Shown here: positions 3,293 through 12,241 of the stretch, in pieces | How the letters are laid out: every line of letters begins with the position of its first letter | Position numbering within the stretch: position 1 is the stretch's first letter | Virus record (IMG/VR): IMGVR_UViG_3300033141_001438 | Location: 1-24,384 of that record | Strand: one strand, 5' to 3' | Source: a virus | DNA: 24,384 bases | The notes under the pieces: generated by a model | Told to the model about the DNA's origin: nothing | The model's database searches: none | Seen by the model: the letters and a program-made list of their open reading frames with translations, nothing else | Translations under genes and position numbers: made by a program

Positions 3293-3487
3293 ATGGAAGA
3301 CACGGTGAAAGCAGCGTTTGCCAACTATTTCGGGCACGAAACCCTGACGCTTCAACGCACTAAAGTTGATGGGTGGACGAATACGTGGATCGTAGTCTCG
3401 AACGGCCCCGAAGGGATCAAGCTAGAGAAGTCCAACACGAAGGCCAAGAAGGTGTACATCCTGCGCCGCCTCATCGGGGGCTGCTAG
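3293..3487 (+). CDS. Small protein of unknown function, probably leaderless
   Basis: 64 residues, beginning MEDTVKAAFANYFGHETLTL; basic C-terminal half (KLEKSNTKAKKVYILRRL). No domain is recognised. No Shine-Dalgarno precedes the ATG; instead a good -35/-10 pair places the transcription start next to it, which suggests leaderless translation. The stop TAG shares its last base with the GTG of the next gene, so the two are coupled. Coding status rests on that coupling and on the promoter position. Confidence 0.6.
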   Translation: MEDTVKAAFANYFGHETLTLQRTKVDGWTNTWIVVSNGPEGIKLEKSNTKAKKVYILRRLIGGC

Positions 3488-4005
3488 TGAGACGCCAGAA
3501 GCCGACAAAACCCGACAGGCCCAAAACGATGAAAGGCCGCTTAGAAGCGGCCCGGTTAGCGCGTGAGATGGCAGTCGAATTGCTTGGCGAAAACCAAGTT
3601 GAATTCTTCGACGAGCATGGTTATATGATCGTTGAGGGCAACAACGGTTATCGCTATTGGATCTTCGATAGGATTAGCGCCGAAGAGTTTGGGACTGCCG
3701 AGACGAACGAGATCCATAACATACTCATCAATACCCCCTGGGAACCAGATGAGGGGGCGGAACCCGCTGAGTGGCTTGTCTGGGGTTACGATACGGCGCA
3801 GGGATTCGACTGTATGAGATTCTTCATGTACGGCTCGTATGCGATGCCTCGCTACGATGAGCTTGCGGCGGCGGCAGTCGAACTGATGGTTGACACCAAT
3901 GGGTTCATCATGCGTGGGTGTCGGCCTGGCGGTTCGATTCAGACGCCTATCCTCAACCGTTTATTACAGAGCGCCAATCTAGGATCGCTGCCCGCAGAGC
4001 CTTAA
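3487..4005 (+). CDS. Hypothetical protein, 172 residues
   Basis: Not recognised. GTG start at 3487 overlaps the preceding stop by one base; the frame is open upstream to 3373 but that part overlies the previous gene. The first 20 residues are Lys/Arg/Pro rich (RRQKPTKPDRPK), followed by a helix (GRLEAARLAREMAVELLG), then an aromatic, acidic middle with EGNNGYRYWIFDRI and WLVWGYD, and helices near the C-terminus. No signal peptide or membrane span. Its 3' end runs 53 bases into the 3' end of the sigma gene on the other strand, so transcripts of the two are convergent and could interfere with each other. Confidence 0.65.
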   Translation: MRRQKPTKPDRPKTMKGRLEAARLAREMAVELLGENQVEFFDEHGYMIVEGNNGYRYWIFDRISAEEFGTAETNEIHNILINTPWEPDEGAEPAEWLVWGYDTAQGFDCMRFFMYGSYAMPRYDELAAAAVELMVDTNGFIMRGCRPGGSIQTPILNRLLQSANLGSLPAEP

Positions 4006-4597
4006 ACTCTTCCTCAGTCGCCATTTCTTCCAGAAGCGCCATCGTCTTCTTGTTGCGATATCCTTTTAGAAGGGATGTTTGTAGCTCGTCAGGAAGCGAT
4101 TCAATCATTGACCATAGTCTGTCTTGTGCCAGAATCGATTCCGGCCCCGGTGACAGATCTGTTCTAGGTATTTGCCGACAACGGGCTACATATTCCTGGC
4201 GTCTGTCTGCCCGTTTCTTCTCTTGCGCCACAAATCTGTAAACCCGCTGCCTGATGATCAGATTTGCCCACGATGTAAATCTCACTGTCCCTTTCACGCC
4301 CTTTCGCGGCTTGTCGGGATCAAACTTCTTGATTGCAAATACCAGGGCTTCGGCGGCCACGCAGATAGCATCATCAAGGCGCACCGGGTGAGCAGTGTGG
4401 GTGAAGAAGTCTTCCTTATTCCCGCCGCAGTGATGAGCCATGTTTGCAAAGAACAGAATGCGATTGGCATTGTGCTTAACCAGTAAATCGATTGCCTTCT
4501 CATCACCCTTAACGGCTCTACGAGCAAGCCGATCTTCTTCTTCGGCTGAAAGGTTAGGATAACGGATAGATAGCTGTTTGTACTCGTCCCATAACAC
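3953..4597 (-). CDS. Phage sigma-70-like RNA polymerase sigma factor
   Basis: 214-residue protein that should bind host core RNA polymerase and direct it to phage promoters. LSAEEEDRLARRAVKGDEKA plus LVKHNANRILFFANM match sigma regions 1.2-2.1. LDDAICVAAEALVFAIKKFD and RFTSWANLIIRQRVYRFVAQ match regions 2.2-2.4, including the FTSWA/IRQ core-binding and -10 recognition helices. Between them is an insert of about 20 residues (AHHCGGNKEDFFTHTAHPVR). The C-terminus has SLPDELQTSLLKGYRNKKT, a weak region-4-like helix-turn-helix that lacks the usual eIA..l motif. GTG at 4597 is chosen because AAAGGAG lies six bases upstream (4604-4610). It is the only minus-strand protein gene seen, divergent from the gene at 4632 and convergent with that at 3487. 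It might instead be an anti-sigma-like decoy, but region 2 looks intact. Confidence 0.8.
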   Translation of the reverse strand: MLWDEYKQLSIRYPNLSAEEEDRLARRAVKGDEKAIDLLVKHNANRILFFANMAHHCGGNKEDFFTHTAHPVRLDDAICVAAEALVFAIKKFDPDKPRKGVKGTVRFTSWANLIIRQRVYRFVAQEKKRADRRQEYVARCRQIPRTDLSPGPESILAQDRLWSMIESLPDELQTSLLKGYRNKKTMALLEEMATEEEFKALRAAILDWRSVING

Positions 4598-4631
4598 GAT
4601 TTTCTCCTTTTGGGGGCTAAAGTTTCTTGAG

Positions 4632-5024
4632 ATGAAAGACCACGAAGATATTCTCAAACGCATCGAAACTCTCTGTGCGGAATTGAAGGCCGACGAAGAC
4701 CGCCGAGCGCGGGTGGTGGGAATGCTATTGCGCGATCTGTCGCTGCCGCTAGACGCACTGGAAAAGCAGGCTAAGAGGCAGAAGAGGCTTGATGCGTTGA
4801 AGCTGAAGGATCATGCACATAAGCTAAACGAGCAAATTGTGGGCATCTTATCTAAGAAAGAACCTGACACAGCTTTGGCGATGCGCCTTCTTCTCACTAA
4901 GAATATACTGGAATCGGACATTGACCCTGAAAATGCGCAGGCGTTTAAGGCCCGCGCCGATGCCTGTAAGACACTTGCCGCCGAACAGACTATCTCCGCA
5001 CCCGGCAAGGACGTGACGTTTTGA
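4632..5024 (+). CDS. Helical protein of unknown function
   Basis: 130 residues, almost entirely predicted helix, with charged heptad-like stretches (EKQAKRQKRLDALKLKDHAHKL and a following QIVGILSKK segment). No domain recognised. ATG 4632 lies 34 bases from the divergent sigma start; an earlier ATG at 4578 lies inside the sigma coding region and is unlikely. The ribosome binding site is weak (GGGGGCT 15 bases upstream). The stop TGA overlaps the TTG start of the zinc-ribbon gene. A small terminase subunit is conceivable from size and helicity but the distance from the large subunit gives no support. Confidence 0.6.
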   Translation: MKDHEDILKRIETLCAELKADEDRRARVVGMLLRDLSLPLDALEKQAKRQKRLDALKLKDHAHKLNEQIVGILSKKEPDTALAMRLLLTKNILESDIDPENAQAFKARADACKTLAAEQTISAPGKDVTF

Positions 5025-5212
5025 TCTGCCCTGAGTGCAGTTCAACTGACGTGCGGGAATTGAAAGCCGAATATGTGTTCCATCAGGACACCACGTTTAC
5101 CTACCAGTGCAATGCCTGTGGGCATGTGTTTACCAGTACGGTAGACGGACGCGATGGGTTCTTTATTGAGCAACCGAGGACGTTGCTAAAGAAAACCGTG
5201 ACAGGGTCATAG
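5021..5212 (+). CDS. Small zinc-ribbon protein
   Basis: 63 residues with two CxxC knuckles: CPEC at residues 3-6 and CNACGHVF about 25 residues later, spaced as in a zinc ribbon. It probably binds one zinc and may contact nucleic acid or a polymerase, as many small phage zinc ribbons do; that role is inferred. The TTG start overlaps the preceding stop (TTGA), and AAGGA lies about nine bases upstream. After its stop begins a noncoding stretch of about 250 bases. Confidence 0.65.
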   Translation: MICPECSSTDVRELKAEYVFHQDTTFTYQCNACGHVFTSTVDGRDGFFIEQPRTLLKKTVTGS

Positions 5213-5460
5213 TCGGTTTTCAGTATATTCTTAATGAAGCTGGCCGACAGGTTAGCTGGCGCTGCGGGGAACGCATATCGTCCCGTGAAGAAAAGGTATG
5301 CGTTGGCAATGTAACGGGCATGTGGGATCGAAGCCCACCCTCGTAGCAAGGGCGACTGTGGATGTATCCGATAGGATGGGAAGCGTTAGACCACATCGGG
5401 CCGGGGACACGCTTACCGGCCAGCCGCCCCACTCATGCAAGCAAGTTCAAGGAGGACCAT
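5213..5460 (+). other. Noncoding stretch with strong RNA structure
   Basis: No convincing gene. It holds GTATAT at 5223, the three-way-junction element at 5263-5345, a hairpin with TGTGG 5357-5361/CCACA 5391-5395 around ATCC/GGAT, a six-pair stem GGCCGG 5399-5404/CCGGCC 5416-5421, and finally the AAGGAGG site of the gene at 5461. The frame open at 5298-5516 runs through these stems and past the strong site, so I treat it as chance. Confidence 0.5.
5263..5345 (+). ncRNA. tRNA-like three-way junction with possible pseudoknot
   Basis: Closing stem TGCGGGG 5263-5269 pairs with CCTCGTA 5339-5345 (seven pairs, two G-U). An eight-pair stem follows, AACGCATA 5270-5277 with TATGCGTT 5297-5304. A T-arm-like hairpin GTGGG 5322-5326/CCCAC 5334-5338 has loop ATCGAAG. 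CCCGT 5282-5286 in the second loop can pair with ACGGG 5314-5318, giving a pseudoknot. No proper D arm or seven-base anticodon loop can be drawn, so it is not a normal tRNA. It could be a decayed tRNA or a different structured RNA. The strand is taken from the flanking genes. Confidence 0.35.
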
Positions 5461-5742
5461 ATGAATTTCATCACAACCATCGTCGGATTGATCGGGAAGG
5501 TTATCTCGCCCTCTAAGCAGATTCAGGCTGTCGGGGGTAGACGGGTATGGGTTTCCCTTGTGGGGATGGCCTTCGTGATTGTTGCGTGGGTGCTGAAGAT
5601 CCCAGAAGCCCTCATCTATGGGGCGCTGGCAGTTGGCGGGGCATTCGTTGTCGGTGAGAGCGTGGCCGATGTGAAGGGGCGCAGTGGATTCAATTTGGCC
5701 GATATTCTCGGTCTGGGGGACGATGAAGAAGAAACGAATTAA
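5461..5742 (+). CDS. Small membrane protein, holin-like in shape
   Basis: 93 residues with an N-terminal amphipathic or hydrophobic segment (MNFITTIVGLIGKVISP), then RRVWVSLVGMAFVIVAWVLK and IYGALAVGGAFVVGESVADV, two likely transmembrane helices separated by a short turn, and an acidic tail (GLGDDEEETN). ATG 5461 is fixed by AAGGAGG eight bases upstream. Size and topology fit a class II holin or another phage inner-membrane protein; no lysin is seen next to it, so the holin reading is only possible. The end overlaps the next gene by 20 bases. Confidence 0.65.
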   Translation: MNFITTIVGLIGKVISPSKQIQAVGGRRVWVSLVGMAFVIVAWVLKIPEALIYGALAVGGAFVVGESVADVKGRSGFNLADILGLGDDEEETN

Positions 5743-6043
5743 GACAATTCGCGCTGGCGGGGAAGACTACGAGATACGCTGGGACCCTGATGGAGCATAT
5801 CTCATCAAGTTTGGGGCTGAAGCGATGGCTGATCATAATTCCTGTATCATTTATCTTCACCCTAGCCTGAAAGGACGCCCGCTAGCGATCCTCAAGGCCT
5901 TGTTTCACGAGACGTTTCACACCATCGAACACGTCGTCAACGAGGACCTTGACGAAGATACGCTTGATCGCTTTGCGAAGGGCTTAGCAATCGTGCTCAC
6001 CGAGAGCGGAATCATCAATCCAGAGGACTACGAGTTTGGGTAA
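5723..6043 (+). CDS. Small zincin-like protein with HExxHxxxH motif
   Basis: 106 residues. The centre carries FHETFHTIEHV, a full HExxHxxxH zinc-binding motif as in zinc metallopeptidases, preceded by a hydrophobic helix (LAILKALFHE) and followed by an acidic helix. The N-terminus is basic (MKKKRIKTIRAGG) and leads into a small beta region with GGEDYEIRWD. This is the size of phage minimal gluzincin/IrrE-like domains. ATG 5723 has GGGGGA just upstream; ATG 5684 lies further inside the preceding gene. It could be a protease, for example against a host repressor, or a metal-binding protein; catalysis is not proven. Confidence 0.65.
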   Translation: MKKKRIKTIRAGGEDYEIRWDPDGAYLIKFGAEAMADHNSCIIYLHPSLKGRPLAILKALFHETFHTIEHVVNEDLDEDTLDRFAKGLAIVLTESGIINPEDYEFG

Positions 6044-6290
6044 TCTCTTAGCCAGATATAACACTTGGCGCTTAGTAAGAAAGCTGCGAAAGGCAGAGCG
6101 AACGGGGAATGTCATCCTCTGCAATACCAAGGGCGTCGAGTTAGATCCGCGCATGGTGTTGGACACAGAGGGGTTCCAGGAAGGGTGTATTCCAGTGGCC
6201 TACAAGCCACCGTTTCTAGTGGTAATGACGCCCGAGACGGCACCCGTGGGCTTTTTCGTGCCATATCCAAGTGATGATTCGTGTAACTGA
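6036..6290 (+). CDS. Hypothetical protein, 84 residues
   Basis: Not recognised. TTG start at 6036 overlaps the previous stop, with AGAGGA about nine bases upstream. Basic N-terminal helix (ARYNTWRLVRKLRKAERTG), then a beta-rich part with KPPFLVVMTPETAPVGFFVP. No membrane segment is clear. The 3' end overlaps the HNH gene by 20 bases. The overlap pattern matches its neighbours, which is the main support for coding. Confidence 0.55.
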   Translation: MGNLLARYNTWRLVRKLRKAERTGNVILCNTKGVELDPRMVLDTEGFQEGCIPVAYKPPFLVVMTPETAPVGFFVPYPSDDSCN

Positions 6291-6987
6291 AGCGCAGATT
6301 ACAGAAGCAAAACAGATGCGCGGCGCTGGCTTGTCATATCAGAAAATTGCGGAGGCAGTTGGGTTTTCTGAGGCGACTGTCCGCTACCATCTCGATCCCG
6401 CGAAGGCTGCTGCATATCGGGCATCTCACAGGGAGGCTCGCCGTGTGCGTGCCGCTGAGTATCAGAGAACTCACCGGAAAGAAATCAGTGCGAGGAAGGC
6501 TAAATACCACGCCGCCCATAAGGAGCGCTTATTGCAATACGGCGTCGAATACTATTGGGCACACCGCGATGAGATCAAAGCGAGGAAGGCTAAATACTAT
6601 CAGGCACACTGCGATGAGATCAAGGTAAGGGAGGTGGAGTACCGCAAGGAACACCGTAATGAGATCAAGGCGAGGAAAGCGGAGTATTGCAAGGTTCACA
6701 GGGCCGAAAAGAATTCTCACACGGCTGCAAGATACGCCCTCAAGCTAGGCGCCACTATAGGCAATCTCGACGAGATCAAAGAGATCTACCGCAAGGCCAA
6801 AGAAGCCCCCAAAGTTCGCTGCTACCTCTGCGGTAAGCTGATCCCAAAAGGCCACCGCCACGTAGATCACATCATGCCGTTATCTAAGGGCGGCGCACAT
6901 CGGCCTTCCAATCTAGCAGCGGCATGCGATACGTGCAATTTGAGCAAGCATGATAAGACACCCGAAGAAATTGGGGTACTGATATAG
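6271..6987 (+). CDS. HNH homing-type endonuclease with HTH and 15-residue repeats
   Basis: 238 residues in three parts. Residues 1-50 hold a helix-turn-helix (GLSYQKIAEAVGFSEATVRYHL) that should recognise DNA. Residues 53-142 are six tandem 15-residue units of the form HRDEIKARKAKYYQA, a long charged helix or spacer, likely a DNA-contacting arm. Residues 184-230 are the HNH nuclease: CYLCGK, VDHIMPLSKGG (Asp199-His200), CDTCN and a final LSKHDKTPEE, with four cysteines binding a structural zinc. Start is GTG 6271 or ATG 6274; no strong ribosome binding site. No intron or split gene flanks it, so it looks like a free-standing homing endonuclease, placed beside the tRNA-like/tmRNA genes. Confidence 0.85.
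   Translation: MMIRVTEAQITEAKQMRGAGLSYQKIAEAVGFSEATVRYHLDPAKAAAYRASHREARRVRAAEYQRTHRKEISARKAKYHAAHKERLLQYGVEYYWAHRDEIKARKAKYYQAHCDEIKVREVEYRKEHRNEIKARKAEYCKVHRAEKNSHTAARYALKLGATIGNLDEIKEIYRKAKEAPKVRCYLCGKLIPKGHRHVDHIMPLSKGGAHRPSNLAAACDTCNLSKHDKTPEEIGVLI
6427..6696 (+). repeat. Six in-phase 45-bp tandem repeats inside the HNH gene
   Basis: Units begin at 6427, 6472, 6517, 6562, 6607 and 6652, each 45 bases coding for 15 residues starting with His. The last three are most alike (GATGAGATCAA and GCGAGGAA recur). A partial seventh unit (HRAEK) follows. Copy number may vary between relatives by slippage. Confidence 0.85.
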
Positions 6988-7012
6988 AACCATGAGGAGA
7001 GATAGAAAATAA

Positions 7013-7100
7013 GCATCCTGAGCAAGGTGGTCCTTGCAGAAGGTATCACGGGTAAACCGGGGATTTGAGGGTGGGATACTGGTCCGATTCCAGAGGGTGC
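7013..7100 (+). ncRNA. tRNA-like cloverleaf element next to the tmRNA
   Basis: GCATCCT 7013-7019 pairs fully with AGGGTGC 7094-7100. After a GA linker (as at tRNA positions 8-9) comes a D-arm-like hairpin GCAAGG 7022-7027/CCTTGC 7032-7037 with a four-base loop. A T-arm-like hairpin CTGG/CCAG (7079-7082/7090-7093) has the seven-base loop TCCGATT. The middle arm (GTATC 7043-7047/GATAC 7075-7079 region) has no seven-base anticodon loop. Only four bases separate it from the tmRNA 5' end. It may be a decayed tRNA or a processing guide; a working tRNA is doubtful. No CCA is encoded. Confidence 0.4.
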
Positions 7101-7104
7101 GCAT

Positions 7105-7449
7105 GGGGGTGACAGGCTTCGACGTGGGATTAGAGACGATGGCTGCAAGCACACTGTCTAATCGACAAACAAGTATCATTCCTGACTAAGATCAGGGTCT
7201 GGCTTGCGAACGCTGCTGATTCGTTCCTTGCTGGACTACGACCAATCGGCACGCCTGTCACCGTTTGCGCTTAACAAACAGGCAAGACTAAAGCGCACAG
7301 ACTCACCTGCCATGTGCAGGAGTAGCAACGTTGCCGTGTAAGCGGCAACCGCAGCTTGAACGGACTGTTGCACCGTCAACGCAACTAAGCTTGTAGATGC
7401 CACGAGGAGATCGCCACGGACGCGGGTTCAACTCCCGCCACCTCCACCA
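7105..7449 (+). ncRNA. ssrA: tmRNA (transfer-messenger RNA), complete
   Basis: Rescues stalled ribosomes by acting as alanyl-tRNA and then as a short mRNA. The acceptor stem GGGGGTG 7105-7111 pairs with CACCTCC 7439-7445 (one G-U), followed by A and an encoded CCA at 7447-7449. GGCTTCGACG at 7115-7124 is the conserved D-loop-like segment, and GGACGCGGGTTCAACTCCCG includes the T arm (stem 7422-7426/7434-7438, loop TTCAACT). Long helix H2 joins GATGGC..CAAGC near 7137-7150 with GCTTG..TGCCA near 7390-7411. Pseudoknots are visible: GCCTGT 7253-7258/ACAGGC 7278-7283 with TGCGCTT/AAGCGCA, a CCTGC/GCAGG plus GTTGCCG/CGGCAAC region, and ACGG/CCGT with GTTGC/GCAAC before H2. At 345 bases it is of normal size. 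The tag frame is not settled: no frame ends in the usual Leu-Ala-Ala-stop. One candidate is a 22-codon frame from GCG 7207 ending in TAA 7273. Confidence 0.92.
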
Positions 7450-7481
7450 GAATGAAACCAATTAGCGGATTTACGAAGAAA

Positions 7482-7655
7482 CGTTCCTTGTATCAGATCA
7501 AAGCCCCCTGGCTAGAAGATGTTGTTCGCAGTGCCGTGCATAGCACTACTGCCTCCCGCAGAACGGCTTTGGCCGCTGAGCCTATCAACGGCCACATCTC
7601 ACCTGCCACGAGCAGGCAGAGGAACATTGTCGCGGAAGCGGCAACAGCAATAGGA
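7482..7655 (+). ncRNA. Diverged second copy of the tmRNA pseudoknot core, in operon leader
   Basis: Bases 7597-7649 align without gaps to tmRNA bases 7301-7353, with about 41 of 53 identical by my count. Both hairpins persist: CCTGC/GCAGG, and TTGTCG/CGGCAA where the tmRNA has GTTGCCG/CGGCAAC. Directly upstream, with the same three-base spacing as in the tmRNA, is an H-type pseudoknot (GGCT 7565-7568/AGCC 7579-7582; GGCCG 7571-7575/CGGCC 7589-7593) at the place of tmRNA PK2 but with different bases. CGTTCCTTG also recurs (7482 and 7222). Two further hairpins lie at 7531-7546 and 7549-7561. There is no acceptor or T arm: the copy runs into TAGGAGA, the ribosome binding site of the gene at 7663. 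Confidence 0.7.
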
Positions 7656-7662
7656 GACTGAT

Positions 7663-7953
7663 GTGCTCTTAAACAAGGTGTACTACGTGGGCGAGGCCCG
7701 CATTCTCGCATTCTATCCTTTAAGGAACCGGGGTAAAATCACCCCCGATTCGGCAACGATCCAGATAACGGATAGCGAGGGCACAGATGTTGTACCTGTC
7801 ACCGCAGCGGGGATCACCGGCCAGAAGGTTTACTATCCGGTGAACGAATCGAACGTTACCGCCGAAGCCGGACAGTACACCGCGTACTGGGTGGTGAACT
7901 ACGGGGATGAGGTGATAAAGACCAAGCATCGAATTACCGTCGAGGAATTCTAG
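7663..7953 (+). CDS. Small virion-associated protein, probably baseplate or fibre appendage
   Basis: 96 residues, largely beta. GTG start at 7663 with TAGGAGA nine bases upstream. The pattern (Y.VGEARIL.FYPL...G.ITPDSATIQITDSEGT, then a QYTAYWVVNYGDEV strand and a short KHRITVEEF end) resembles small Ig-like or BppU-N-like domains found in phage appendages; the match is by overall look only. First gene of the fibre operon, behind the tmRNA-like leader. Stop TAG overlaps the next GTG by one base. Confidence 0.6.
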   Translation: MLLNKVYYVGEARILAFYPLRNRGKITPDSATIQITDSEGTDVVPVTAAGITGQKVYYPVNESNVTAEAGQYTAYWVVNYGDEVIKTKHRITVEEF

Positions 7954-8309
7954 TGGCGCAAGAGCATACCCCCATCTACATGTTCGTCGATGTAACGGGT
8001 GTCTATGACTTTATCGATATCGATGAATTCGAGCTTCAGGAAGAGACTCCTATCTACGACCTCGCTGACTACACGGCAGTCTACGACTTCAATTGGTTCG
8101 TCGTTGACATTGCGGTTCACGCGCACGTCCATTTTGTGATTCCAATCGGGGTCATAGATGGGATCAACAAGACATTCAAGGTGGGTGGAAGGCAGTTCGA
8201 GGTGATGCTGAACGGCCTCAACCATCCTTACACCAGTATCATCGGCGGCTTTGTTCTTGATTCTGCCCCACGCCCAGGGGACTTCCTCTGGTGTGACACC
8301 GTGATATGA
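7953..8309 (+). CDS. Small tail/appendage protein with GxIDGINKTF module
   Basis: 118 residues, GTG start sharing a base with the previous stop. The first half is acidic and aromatic with two echoing segments (TPIYMFVDVTGVYDFIDID and TPIYDLADYTAVYDFNW), an internal duplication of about 30 residues. The second half has IGVIDGINKTFKVGG, FEVMLNGLNHPYTS and APRPGDFLWCD, the same beta module as the next gene. Such modules occur in phage tail fibre proteins. The coding strand is strongly supported by neighbour overlap; function is inferred from position. Confidence 0.6.
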   Translation: MAQEHTPIYMFVDVTGVYDFIDIDEFELQEETPIYDLADYTAVYDFNWFVVDIAVHAHVHFVIPIGVIDGINKTFKVGGRQFEVMLNGLNHPYTSIIGGFVLDSAPRPGDFLWCDTVI

Positions 8310-8530
8310 CGCACATACATAGCCTATACAAAGAACTAACCGGCGCGGTTGATGGAATCAACAAGACGTTCGTCTTGCCGTCTACGCCCGTTGCGGGAAG
8401 CGTTAGGTTCTTCGTTCGGGGAATCGAGCAGTTCTACACGACTGACTTTACAGTTAGTGGAACCACCCTCACAACGGTTGAGGCTCCAAGAACGGGCGAC
8501 ACGATCTACGCGCATTACGAGGAAACATGA
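8306..8530 (+). CDS. Small fibre-module protein (VDGINKTFxLP repeat family)
   Basis: 74 residues making up a single module: TGAVDGINKTFVLPSTPVAG, then VRFFVRGIEQFYTTDFTVSG, then APRTGDTIYAHYEE. This is the pattern (VDGxNxxFxLP ... NG ... DYTvsG ... P..GDtI...Y) common in phage tail and baseplate proteins. ATG overlaps the previous stop (ATGA) and its own stop overlaps the next start. It is a paralogue of the C-terminal half of the preceding protein, so a tandem duplication is likely. Confidence 0.65.
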   Translation: MTHIHSLYKELTGAVDGINKTFVLPSTPVAGSVRFFVRGIEQFYTTDFTVSGTTLTTVEAPRTGDTIYAHYEET

Positions 8531-8727
8531 GAATACGTCTATCTCAGATAAGAATGACCCCGTTAAGCGAACCGCCTGACAATCCTCACGAGGATGAAGC
8601 GTACCTCGATGATGGGACGAATACGAAGTCGGGGGTCATGGGATGGCGGATTTACCGTAGTGGGGCATGGGAAGATGTAGGGCTACAAGAGATGGAAGAC
8701 ATTGCAATAGATGGGGGGAGCTTCTAG
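8527..8727 (+). CDS. Small protein ending in IDGGSF, fibre operon
   Basis: 66 residues. Start overlaps the previous stop. It reads as a short beta domain (MRIRLSQIRMTPLSEPPDNP..DEAYLDDGTNTK, then GWRIYRSGAWEDVG) of the kind that describes a displayed small structural module, ending in MEDIAIDGGSF. The same IDGGSF ending closes the large fibre protein that follows, which suggests a shared C-terminal function or origin. Unknown exact role. Confidence 0.55.
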   Translation: MRIRLSQIRMTPLSEPPDNPHEDEAYLDDGTNTKSGVMGWRIYRSGAWEDVGLQEMEDIAIDGGSF

Positions 8728-8736
8728 GAGGAGATA

Positions 8737-10062
8737 ATGGCAAATACTATCCAGATACGCAGGGGAACAGCAGCCGAGCTGGTTTCATTAGGGAATCTAG
8801 CAGCGGGCGAACTCGGATTTAGCACAGACACATACCAGGTACATATCGGGCAAGGGGCCGCAAACTACGAGTTCCTGATGCACCAGTTGTTTGATGCCGG
8901 GACGTTCTTGTATGCAGTAGATGATAACACGCCGGTAGTCAAGACACGCGCAGAGGTAATGGCCCTTCTGTCGGGTCAGGCGGCGGCTGACTTTGCGATG
9001 AATTCGCACAAGATCACGGGTGTAACTGATCCGACTGCGGCGCAAGATGCGGCAACAAAGGCATACGTTGACAGCATTGCGCAGGGCCTCAGAGTGATTG
9101 CAGACGTTGGCAATGCGACTACAGAAAACATCTCACTAACTGGCGAACAGACGATTGACGGGATTCTGACCTCGACGAGTCGCATCCTGGTTAAGGACCA
9201 GACGGACCCGAAAGAGAACGGGGTTTACGTCACGGCAGCGGAGGCATGGTCGCGTGCGGCTGACATGGATGCCAACGATGAGGTTTCTCATTCGTTCGTG
9301 TTCGTAACTGCGGGTACTGAAAATGCTGATACCGGCTGGGTTTGCACGAACGAACCGGAGTCGGTTGAGATCGGCACAGACAATATCACTTTCAGCCAGT
9401 TCTCAGCGGCGGGGCACATTACGGCAGGAACCGGACTTGCTAAGACTGGGAATACTCTCTCTGTCGATGGCCTTCTTGAAGACCTCGATGCGCTGGGTGC
9501 GTGTGCGGCTGACGGCGAGGTGATGGTTGGTACAGGCGAGGGCGCGATGGCTTGGGAATCAGGCGACACCCTGCGAACATCCCTTGGTTTGGCAATCGGA
9601 TCAGATGTTCAGGCGCACGACGCCGAACTTGCGGCACTCGCTGGATTGACCTCGGCGGCGAATAAGATCCCGTACTTCACGGGTAGCGAGACAGCGGGGC
9701 TTCTGGATCTCGTTCTTACCGTGGGTGATCCAGGCGATGATACCTCATTGGTCAGCGAACAGGGTATCCGTGAGGCTATCGATGCTGTTGCGGCTGGCGC
9801 ATTCACCGATCTCTCTGATTCGCCAGCAAACTACACCGATGCGGCGGGCAAGCTAGTAGTAGTCAACGGCACGCCAGATGGCCTTGAGTATGTGGCCATC
9901 ACCGCTTTTCTGGAAGACACACCAACCGAGGATCTTGCGACTAAGGCCCCGACTTCTGAATGGGCTTTTGATCATGATGCGGCCACTACTAGCGTGCATG
10001 GCGCAGGCGCGAACACGCTTCTACACAGCGGTTCGACGATCGATGGCGGGTCGTTCGCTTAG
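8737..10062 (+). CDS. Tail fibre protein with Mtd-N-like attachment module
   Basis: 441 residues, ATG with AGGAGG upstream. Residues 4-50 (IQIRRGTAAELVSLGNLAAG, then ELGFSTDTYQVHIGQG) match the N-terminal domain seen in phage major tropism determinant and tail-fibre proteins that fixes the fibre to the virion. A following TGVTDPTAAQDAATKAYVDS is the common fibre repeat/coiled-coil motif. The middle is a long beta-rich Ala/Gly/Thr/Asp region, and the end is LLHSGSTIDGGSFA. It should trimerise and take part in host binding. No reverse transcriptase or template repeat is seen, so there is no sign of a diversity-generating retroelement in this window. It is paralogous at its N-terminus to the protein at 10587. 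Confidence 0.8.
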   Translation: MANTIQIRRGTAAELVSLGNLAAGELGFSTDTYQVHIGQGAANYEFLMHQLFDAGTFLYAVDDNTPVVKTRAEVMALLSGQAAADFAMNSHKITGVTDPTAAQDAATKAYVDSIAQGLRVIADVGNATTENISLTGEQTIDGILTSTSRILVKDQTDPKENGVYVTAAEAWSRAADMDANDEVSHSFVFVTAGTENADTGWVCTNEPESVEIGTDNITFSQFSAAGHITAGTGLAKTGNTLSVDGLLEDLDALGACAADGEVMVGTGEGAMAWESGDTLRTSLGLAIGSDVQAHDAELAALAGLTSAANKIPYFTGSETAGLLDLVLTVGDPGDDTSLVSEQGIREAIDAVAAGAFTDLSDSPANYTDAAGKLVVVNGTPDGLEYVAITAFLEDTPTEDLATKAPTSEWAFDHDAATTSVHGAGANTLLHSGSTIDGGSFA

Positions 10063-10080
10063 CCTTAAAAGGAGTCCAAA

Positions 10081-10590
10081 ATGGAAAACGCGACAATCAC
10101 TTCTGACAAGCCGCAGGGGGACTCTCAGGGGTTCCCCAGCGTGCTCACGACTGAAGATCTGTACACAGAGATGGGCAGGCAAGTTGCGACTGTTCTCAAT
10201 CTTCACAAGATCATCAAGAGCCTAGCTGGACGTATGCAGGTAGCTGAAAAGGCTGCCGTAGAAGGGCGCGAGGCCGTTAAGAAGGCCACTGAGATCGAGA
10301 AATCGAATAAAGCCCTGTCTGAGCAGAATCGGGCGCTCGATCAGGAATTAACTAAAGCGCGAATGCGGGCGACCGAGGCTGAAAGCCGGATCACTGTTGC
10401 TGAGAAGGCTGTGGCCGCAGCAGAAGCCGCAAAAACCAAAGCTGTAGCTGCGATTCAAAAAGATGCCGCTTCAGTGGTTGAGTATCATCAGAAAACCACA
10501 GAGACCCTTCAAAGCAAACTCGATCTGGCGCAAGAAAAGATCGAGAAGCTGAAATCACCTAAGAAGCGCAAGAAGGCAAAGAAGAAATGA
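10081..10590 (+). CDS. Coiled-coil protein with Lys-rich tail, fibre operon
   Basis: 169 residues. After a short disordered start, residues from about 40 to 155 form a long helix with Ala/Glu/Lys heptads (MQVAEKAAVEGREAVKKATE, later AESRITVAEKAVAAAEAAKT). The end is KSPKKRKKAKKK. No membrane span. AAAAGGAGTCCAAA precedes the ATG, the same leader found before the gene at 23890. It lies between the two fibre genes and its stop overlaps the second fibre start, so it may be a fibre assembly chaperone or a fibre shaft. The basic tail could bind nucleic acid or acidic partners. Function is not recognised. Confidence 0.65.
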   Translation: MENATITSDKPQGDSQGFPSVLTTEDLYTEMGRQVATVLNLHKIIKSLAGRMQVAEKAAVEGREAVKKATEIEKSNKALSEQNRALDQELTKARMRATEAESRITVAEKAVAAAEAAKTKAVAAIQKDAASVVEYHQKTTETLQSKLDLAQEKIEKLKSPKKRKKAKKK

Positions 10591-11630
10591 GCAATACCCT
10601 GAAAGTCCGGCGTGGAACAGCAGCAGAATTGACCGCTCTGGGCGCACTAGAGGCTGGGCAATTCGGGTTCACGACTGATACTCATAAGACGTACATCGGC
10701 GATGGGGCGGCCAATCATCTGCTTGCCAATGACGTGGATGTTCTCAAGAAAGACGGTTCAGTTCCCCTCACCTCGGATTGGGACGCAGGCGCACACGGCA
10801 TTCGCGCACTAAATCTCACCGCAGACGGCCTCACGAGCGGGCGGGTGATCTTTGCGGGGGCGAATGGGCTGTTGTCGGATGATTCTACTTTCTTGTGGGA
10901 TAGCGGGAATCATCGTCTTGGCCTTGGTGCTGCTGCCGATGTATTGCTGCACCTTAAAACAGCAACCACGACCGAATTGCGATTGGAGACAAGCGGGTCA
11001 AGTGATCCAACGTTATCATTTAGAACCGCCGCGGATGGCATAAATCTTTATTTAGATGAAAGCAAAGGATACGACTACTTTGGTATCGACGGACAAACGG
11101 CGGCAGTGGATACTACCGTTCGCGTTACAGCAAAAGATGGGCAAGCGGCAGCATTTCAATTTGCGAGTGGGGCAAATTACTCTGGTTTGTACCATGATGC
11201 GTCTGACAACTTCTACTTCAAGGCATACACTCTAGACAAGGATATGGTTTTCCTTGTCAACGATGGCGGCGTAACGACCGAAACAATGCGCTTAGACGGG
11301 TCTGTCTCTAGCCTGCTTCTCTTCGGCAATACCGCACCTGGCACAAGCGGCGAGAAAGTGGTGGTCTGGGGTGCAGGCACAGCCCCGACGACCAGCCCTG
11401 CGGATGTGACACAACTTTGGTCGGCCGATGTAAACGCCGCTGCGGGATATGCTTGGCTGCATGGGCGCGATGAGAAGGGACACACAATGATCGTGGCGGG
11501 CGTTGTACTCAAGACAGATACCGGACATCCAGCCGATCCACACGAGAGTCTAATAGAAATCAACACGTTTGACAACAAAGCATACATCTACGGCGACGCC
11601 GATTGGCGCGAGATAGCAACCTGGGCATAA
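10587..11630 (+). CDS. Second tail fibre protein with Mtd-N-like attachment module
   Basis: 347 residues. Residues 3-50 (LKVRRGTAAELTALGALEAG, then QFGFTTDTHKTYIGDG) closely match the N-terminus of the fibre at 8737, so both should use the same attachment site. The middle is beta-rich with many Asp/Gly/Ala and a repeated style of short strands (LTSGRVIFAGANGLLSDDS, HRLGLGAAADVLLHLKT), like fibre/tailspike chaperone-bearing proteins. The C-terminus (MIVAGVVLKTDTGHPADPHE, then NKAYIYGDADWREIATWA) is of a kind seen as a closing domain in phage fibres. The distal part differs wholly from the first fibre, consistent with a second receptor specificity. Confidence 0.75.
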   Translation: MSNTLKVRRGTAAELTALGALEAGQFGFTTDTHKTYIGDGAANHLLANDVDVLKKDGSVPLTSDWDAGAHGIRALNLTADGLTSGRVIFAGANGLLSDDSTFLWDSGNHRLGLGAAADVLLHLKTATTTELRLETSGSSDPTLSFRTAADGINLYLDESKGYDYFGIDGQTAAVDTTVRVTAKDGQAAAFQFASGANYSGLYHDASDNFYFKAYTLDKDMVFLVNDGGVTTETMRLDGSVSSLLLFGNTAPGTSGEKVVVWGAGTAPTTSPADVTQLWSADVNAAAGYAWLHGRDEKGHTMIVAGVVLKTDTGHPADPHESLIEINTFDNKAYIYGDADWREIATWA

Positions 11631-11639
11631 GGAGGCAGC

Positions 11640-11891
11640 ATGAAGTACACATGGATGAACGCAAAAAATAAAAAGGTAATCAAAGAGACGGTCACTGAAG
11701 AGTGGGAACAGACGTTCTCTCTCGAAGACCTAGCGCGGGAGTGGGTAAACAGGAAGGCGGCGCTTGTGAAAGCGCAGGCCGATATCGTGGCCTTTCGCGA
11801 GAAGGTGGCGACTTTGCGTGCGGACCTTGCGCTAGACAAGGTTGATCTTGTCGGCATGGACGATCTCGATACATTCGGGGTGGTAAAGTGA
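11640..11891 (+). CDS. Hypothetical protein, 83 residues
   Basis: Not recognised. ATG with AAGGAGG seven bases before. Begins MKYTWMNAKNKKVIKE, followed by a helix pair with heptad-like spacing (DLAREWVNRKAALVKAQADI, FREKVATLRADLALDK). Probably a small helical protein. Stop TGA overlaps the next GTG, so it is coupled to the gene at 11888. Located after the fibres and before the packaging genes; a fibre assembly or tail chaperone role is possible. Confidence 0.6.
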   Translation: MKYTWMNAKNKKVIKETVTEEWEQTFSLEDLAREWVNRKAALVKAQADIVAFREKVATLRADLALDKVDLVGMDDLDTFGVVK

Positions 11892-12241
11892 GAAAGCTAC
11901 GTATTGGCAAGACGGTTGATCTGCTTGGAGAGCCGCAGAAGATCGTTGAGGGTAAGGCCAAGCGCGACATGGTAATCCGTGATCTTATCGTAAATCTGTA
12001 TCCGGTGCTTGAAGGGCAAAAAGGAAGCTCTCTCATTATAACGGACACCGTCCTGAAGATCCGCAACTGCAAGGAAGAATGGATCAAACTAGAAACCCAT
12101 GACTACGATGTGCTGAAGAGCGCCTTGTTGAGCGCCAAGCTTTTGGCGTGGGTGGAAACAGCACTGGTAAAGGCATTCGAGGAAACTGAGGCGCTGGATC
12201 AGAAAGAGGAAGCTAAAGAGAAGAAGGAAGCCGATGGATAA
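11888..12241 (+). CDS. Hypothetical protein, 117 residues
   Basis: Not recognised. GTG start overlapping the previous stop. Short beta N-terminus (MRKLRIGKTVDLLGEPQKIV), then KRDMVIRDLIVNLYPVLEGQ, a middle that could be helical, and a strongly charged end (DQKEEAKEKKEADG). No cysteine cluster, nuclease or membrane motif. The stop overlaps the next start by eight bases. Its size and helix-rich build would also fit a tail chaperone or small terminase, but I see no motif to choose. Confidence 0.6.
   Translation: MRKLRIGKTVDLLGEPQKIVEGKAKRDMVIRDLIVNLYPVLEGQKGSSLIITDTVLKIRNCKEEWIKLETHDYDVLKSALLSAKLLAWVETALVKAFEETEALDQKEEAKEKKEADG

Follow-up and report, generated by a model that had tools for sequence, protein, structure and literature searches.

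In virus record IMGVR_UViG_3300033141_001438, the untranslated leader before the tail-fibre operon carries a partial second copy of the phage's own gene for tmRNA, an RNA that rescues ribosomes. The record, analysed as a single stretch of 24,384 bases (the window), contains genes for a phage head and a contractile tail. The copy, at positions 7598-7649 on the + strand, comprises two internal tmRNA hairpins and the linker between them. We consider it somewhat probable that this is a short internal tmRNA fragment that was left at a recombination junction and now lies in an untranslated leader. An earlier note, made from the sequence alone, had described a partial tmRNA copy in this leader, which our analysis supports, and its fallback of a merely decaying duplication comes close to our best reading.

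The window contains a complete one-piece tmRNA gene

The Rfam covariance model RF00023 matched positions 7105-7449 (+ strand) over its full length (model positions 1-374) with 81.5 bits and an E value of 1.8e-30, the gathering score being 47. The sequence shows an encoded CCA, an intact T arm and an acceptor stem of the alanine type that has the G3-U70 pair, and the gene looks intact. An ARAGORN run on the window did not call it. The most likely tag reading frame (7206-7274, + strand) would read ANAADSFLAGLRPIGTPVTVCA and stop at a TAA that lies in the hairpin loop of PK2; this predicted tag is long and is without the usual LAA/VAA end. PK2 itself was read at 7263-7296 (+ strand; GTTTG/CAAAC and CGCTT/AAGCG), and the block from which the copy derives was placed at 7302-7353 of the same strand by alignment and consensus pairing, with hairpin A (CCTGC/GCAGG) and hairpin B (GTTGCCG/CGGCAAC). 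No sequence similar to the central part of this tmRNA was found among the phage records searched.

Two further features were observed at the 5' side of the gene. A tRNA-like fold abuts the tmRNA 5' end both in the window (7013-7102, with a 7-pair acceptor, a D-like arm and a T-loop-like TCCGATT) and in the related phage L002 (9236-9328, with a T-arm-like GCAGG TTCGAGT CCTGC); neither ARAGORN nor Rfam called a tRNA at these folds, and no sequence is common to both. An HNH endonuclease gene (6271-6987) lies just 5' of the tmRNA and is missing from that place in L002. It is perhaps a homing endonuclease inserted close to RNA genes.

A 52-base piece of the tmRNA recurs downstream

Positions 7598-7649 aligned with tmRNA positions 7302-7353 without gaps and with 41/52 identities (~79%). 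The slightly wider alignment of the earlier note, 7597-7649 with 7301-7353 at about 41/53, turned out to be exactly 41/53, also ungapped. The local alignment reached a score of 30, whereas none of 3,000 dinucleotide shuffles scored above 19 (Gumbel P about 2e-9) and none of 936 other stretches, taken from both strands of the window, above 14. The copy is significantly similar to part of the tmRNA gene of the same genome. On the same diagonal, identity per ten-base bin was 6-9/10 in 7600-7649 and 1-4/10 elsewhere within 7480-7720, and local alignment of the upstream and downstream flanks of the copy to the tmRNA stayed at chance level (P 0.42-0.67). Since the edges are sharp and the flanks align at chance, the homologous unit is 7598-7649 only, that is, the two hairpins and their linker. 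The second copy proposed over 7482-7655 holds for this piece, but not for the remaining interval, where identity is at chance just outside. Similarly, the proposed duplication of a "pseudoknot core" was an overstatement, because the two hairpins are homologous and nothing else is. A longer duplication was ruled out by the chance-level alignment of the flanks.

No match to a tRNA-like domain (acceptor stem, D loop, T arm) was found in 7450-7662, and the Rfam tmRNA search matched the main gene but not the copy. With flank alignment at chance, no tag-like frame with a resume codon was seen for the copy. These results agree with the previous description of a copy that is missing both the acceptor arm and the tag region. 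Lacking a tRNA-like domain and any detectable tag frame, the copy cannot act as a tmRNA. A permuted tmRNA (RF04321) was also rejected: 7389-7680 reached 29.7 bits, below the cut-off of 47, and the match consisted only of the tmRNA 3' half.

Both hairpins are kept in the copy

The claim that both hairpins are kept was confirmed: each of the 12 consensus pairs forms in the tmRNA and in the copy alike, with two of them swapped for other standard pairs. From the tmRNA to the copy, one C-G became U-G and one U-G became C-G, each by a one-sided change, and no compensatory (two-sided) pair changes were found in either hairpin. Hairpin B of the copy has lost its outermost G-C pair. The 11 substitutions fell at 2/24 stem positions and 9/28 other positions, and were rarer in stems (one-sided P 0.037). 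Folding was better than that of shuffles for 7597-7650 (z -3.0) and for 7560-7655 (z -2.85), but only slightly better for the whole leader (z -1.6). The stem-sparing substitutions, the 12 kept pairs and the z of -3.0 give a hint of selection for the hairpins; the constraint could have acted in the tmRNA lineage instead of in the copy.

Upstream of the copy, GGCT at 7565-7568 is complementary to AGCC at 7579-7582, and GGCCG at 7571-7575 to CGGCC at 7589-7593. The region 7565-7593 (+ strand) may therefore form an H-type pseudoknot, or else a simple hairpin (7570-7579/7585-7594). The earlier note had placed this pseudoknot at the position of PK2, with a different sequence. Its stems are as described, the fold is feasible and the sequence does differ: 7565-7593 had no sequence similarity to 7263-7296. 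Pseudoknots of this size occurred in 2.4% of the 52-base stretches of the window, and in 0.8% within 3 bases of this place. Energy folding of the 7565-7594 region, by a method that cannot predict pseudoknots, gave a 9-pair hairpin (TGGCCGcTGA/TCAaCGGCCA). Owing to the post hoc choice of the candidate, its dissimilarity to PK2 and the nested 9-pair alternative, we counted the pseudoknot as weak evidence for a PK2 equivalent.

The copy lies at the left edge of a tail-fibre block

Family matches and synteny comparison defined a 4.6 kb tail-fibre block (7663-12241, + strand) with Mtd_N-type and tail-fibre proteins, which in the window stands between the tmRNA and a small gene followed by the terminase. 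No counterpart of 7663-12241 was found in L002, L005 or L065. L002 is a relative with a terminase 53% identical; its genes at 5727-9160 match those at 3373-6043 of the window in identical order, and its tmRNA (9329-9655) is directly followed by the small gene (9698-9988) and then the terminase. In L065, the small gene and terminase are preceded at this point by a tRNA array. The ten tRNA genes of L065 (20-3864) form two groups, the second of which is in the place of the tmRNA of L002. By this comparison of gene order, the copy sits beside an RNA-gene cluster, on the left-hand border of a module that has been gained or moved. A repeat of the tmRNA 3' end, which is the expectation for an integrase-type insertion, was sought at the right junction of the block and nothing convincing was seen (P 0.043).

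Relatives were sought with the first operon protein, terminase (also used as a query in genomes), portal, sheath and DNA motifs, and only one of them, L002, had a tmRNA. No second copy was found downstream of the L002 tmRNA, and a two-hairpin model gave only weak matches, inside the portal gene, on other family contigs; absence of the copy in relatives rests mainly on L002, as most family contigs end before the tmRNA region. The conservation in related phages by which the earlier note had proposed to judge its idea was not seen, the only relative with a tmRNA being without the copy. Neither conservation nor covariation of the kind that would mark a structured leader RNA was found in L002, the family contigs or the pairing of the two copies.

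The leader that carries the copy is probably not translated

The stretch from the tmRNA 3' end to the tail-fibre operon (7450-7662, + strand) was assigned as an untranslated leader by coding score, family searches and reading of the ribosome binding site (RBS). AGGAG at 7652-7656 (+ strand), 6 bases before GTG 7663, was read as the RBS of the first operon gene. The copy stops 2 bases before it, in line with the previous claim that it ends at this RBS. Predictions had the RBS mostly paired (0.86-0.93), and 0.9 is not unusual, as the same region of other window genes ranged from 0.26 to 0.98. No promoter-like or terminator-like site on the + strand marked the copy or the leader.

The minus strand at 7515-7625 is predicted to form four GUUC/GAAC-closed hairpins (z -3.4), and few 100-base stretches of the window fold as well as the minus strand of the leader. 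Beyond this fold, the only sign of a minus-strand RNA at this place was one promoter-like site, at chance frequency.

Origin of the copy and alternative explanations

The sharp edges, the junction position and the missing conservation favour a recombination fragment, and ~79% identity inside with chance level outside is the expectation for a short segmental copy. In this mechanism, a 52-base internal tmRNA piece would have been duplicated into, or left at, the junction at which the 3' flank of the tmRNA and the left edge of the tail-fibre block came together. The fragment would now be part of the untranslated leader of the block, directly before its first RBS, and any activity would be that of a passive hairpin element ahead of the first gene of the operon. 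We infer a recombination origin for the copy and no specific function.

Since the stems were preferentially kept, the copy may play a modest structural part in the leader as a 5' element. A functional leader RNA is in our view rather unlikely. In this reading, the hairpins would make the 5' region of the mRNA more stable or regulate how the tail-fibre operon is translated, perhaps once the tmRNA has been excised from a transcript shared with the operon. The reading agrees with the position of the copy next to AGGAG, the preferentially kept stems, the folding of the copy and its surroundings and the predicted pairing of the RBS. However, such pairing is within the range of other genes, the leader as a whole folds little better than shuffles, and no covariation, no relative with the copy and no promoter-like or terminator-like + strand site were found. 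The suggestion of a regulatory tmRNA mimic that binds SmpB or another partner appears highly improbable. The tRNA-like-domain RNA of mycobacteriophage DS6A resembles a tmRNA inhibitor, perhaps titrating SmpB (PMC4131195), and phage mimics are thus conceivable. The copy, however, is the opposite part of the molecule, without acceptor arm, D loop or T arm, and had no Rfam tmRNA match. SmpB binds the tRNA-like domain of tmRNA; as this domain is absent from the copy, a decoy role is disfavoured and the suggestion has lost its basis.

The leader also contains a 69-codon open frame (7452-7661), which is probably not a gene. We give little credence to the idea that it is a real gene that took in the tmRNA piece and is coupled to the next gene, even though it ends just ahead of GTG 7663 and its coding score exceeds that of 99% of off-frame stretches. 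The score is below that of 98% of true gene stretches, codon usage was not above dinucleotide shuffles (P 0.096), and a frame of this length in shuffles is unsurprising (P 0.054). There was no RBS before 7452 and no Pfam or PHROGs match, and the alignment showed no third-position bias in the substitutions between copy and tmRNA. A recurrent RNA module, moving between phage RNAs (tmRNA, leader and a separate non-coding unit elsewhere), also seems improbable. It was suggested by L043, a 109-kb viral contig with 20 identical bases, CTCACCTGCCATGTGCAGGA, and partial similarity downstream; this match scored 29 against a maximum of 25 in 3,000 random-flank controls and 38.7 bits with the two-hairpin model. 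The similarity starts at the same base, CTC, in the tmRNA, the leader copy and L043, where it belongs to a ~240-base non-coding unit with a terminator and without tmRNA features on an unrelated contig. Yet it took a motif scan over a very large collection to find L043, the BLAST E value of 9.5e-8 was obtained in a search of four small records and is borderline over the whole collection, and hairpin B is not kept in L043. Moreover, 19 motif hits in bacterial genomes gave no convincing further member and no extended similarity, and the two-hairpin model, in a search without positive control, had no match in 398 genomes of one bacterial phylum. Given the scan size, the L043 resemblance is a lead only. 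There is a slim chance that the hairpin pair is a recurrent phage module that has a shared binding partner, from phage or host, and couples tail-fibre expression to the tmRNA; it would then occur in a tmRNA, an operon leader and an independent non-coding RNA.

The same bacterial searches gave no support for a bacterial origin of the core. In L043 itself, 335-600 (G013 74214-74494) combines a terminator and a tRNA-like fold with a hairpin that matches hairpin A of the tmRNA and with the string GCAAACGAC, which is like a tmRNA tag start. The unit had no tmRNA or tRNA match and no Rfam match above threshold, and is possibly an unrecognised RNA.

Comparison with known systems

Bacteria are known to carry tmRNA pseudogenes and pieces of tmRNA genes (PMC4131195), and prophages to carry ssrA fragments (PMC9004378). 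Like the copy described here, these are partial, non-functional second pieces beside an intact ssrA. They differ in that one gene end is missing, or in their origin by genomic-island integration or prophage excision, whereas the present copy is an internal 52-base piece and lies in a phage, beside the tmRNA that the phage itself encodes. An internal two-hairpin tmRNA fragment in a phage operon leader would be a small variation on these known fragments. Phage-encoded tmRNA occurs in about 2% of phage genomes (PMC9004378). Those of Bxz1, Wildcat, phage G and Melnitz resemble the window tmRNA in the one-piece form (Melnitz has the two-piece form), CCA and G3-U70; the window tmRNA differs from them in the partial copy that follows and in its distinct central part. 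In DS6A, the tmRNA consists of the tRNA-like domain only (PMC4131195, PMC11915505). This too is a truncated tmRNA-derived sequence in a phage, but it keeps the very domain that is absent from the present copy, in which two internal hairpins alone are kept. The T4 gene 32 mRNA has a leader pseudoknot and likewise a structured leader upstream of a phage RBS. The leader here differs in containing a tmRNA-derived piece, and the likeness is one of predicted structure and position.

If the copy is a relic, it would be a clear example of phage RNA-gene clusters serving as exchange sites for tail-fibre modules, with pieces of RNA genes left behind. If the hairpins are used, the phage would have reused part of a tmRNA as an mRNA leader.
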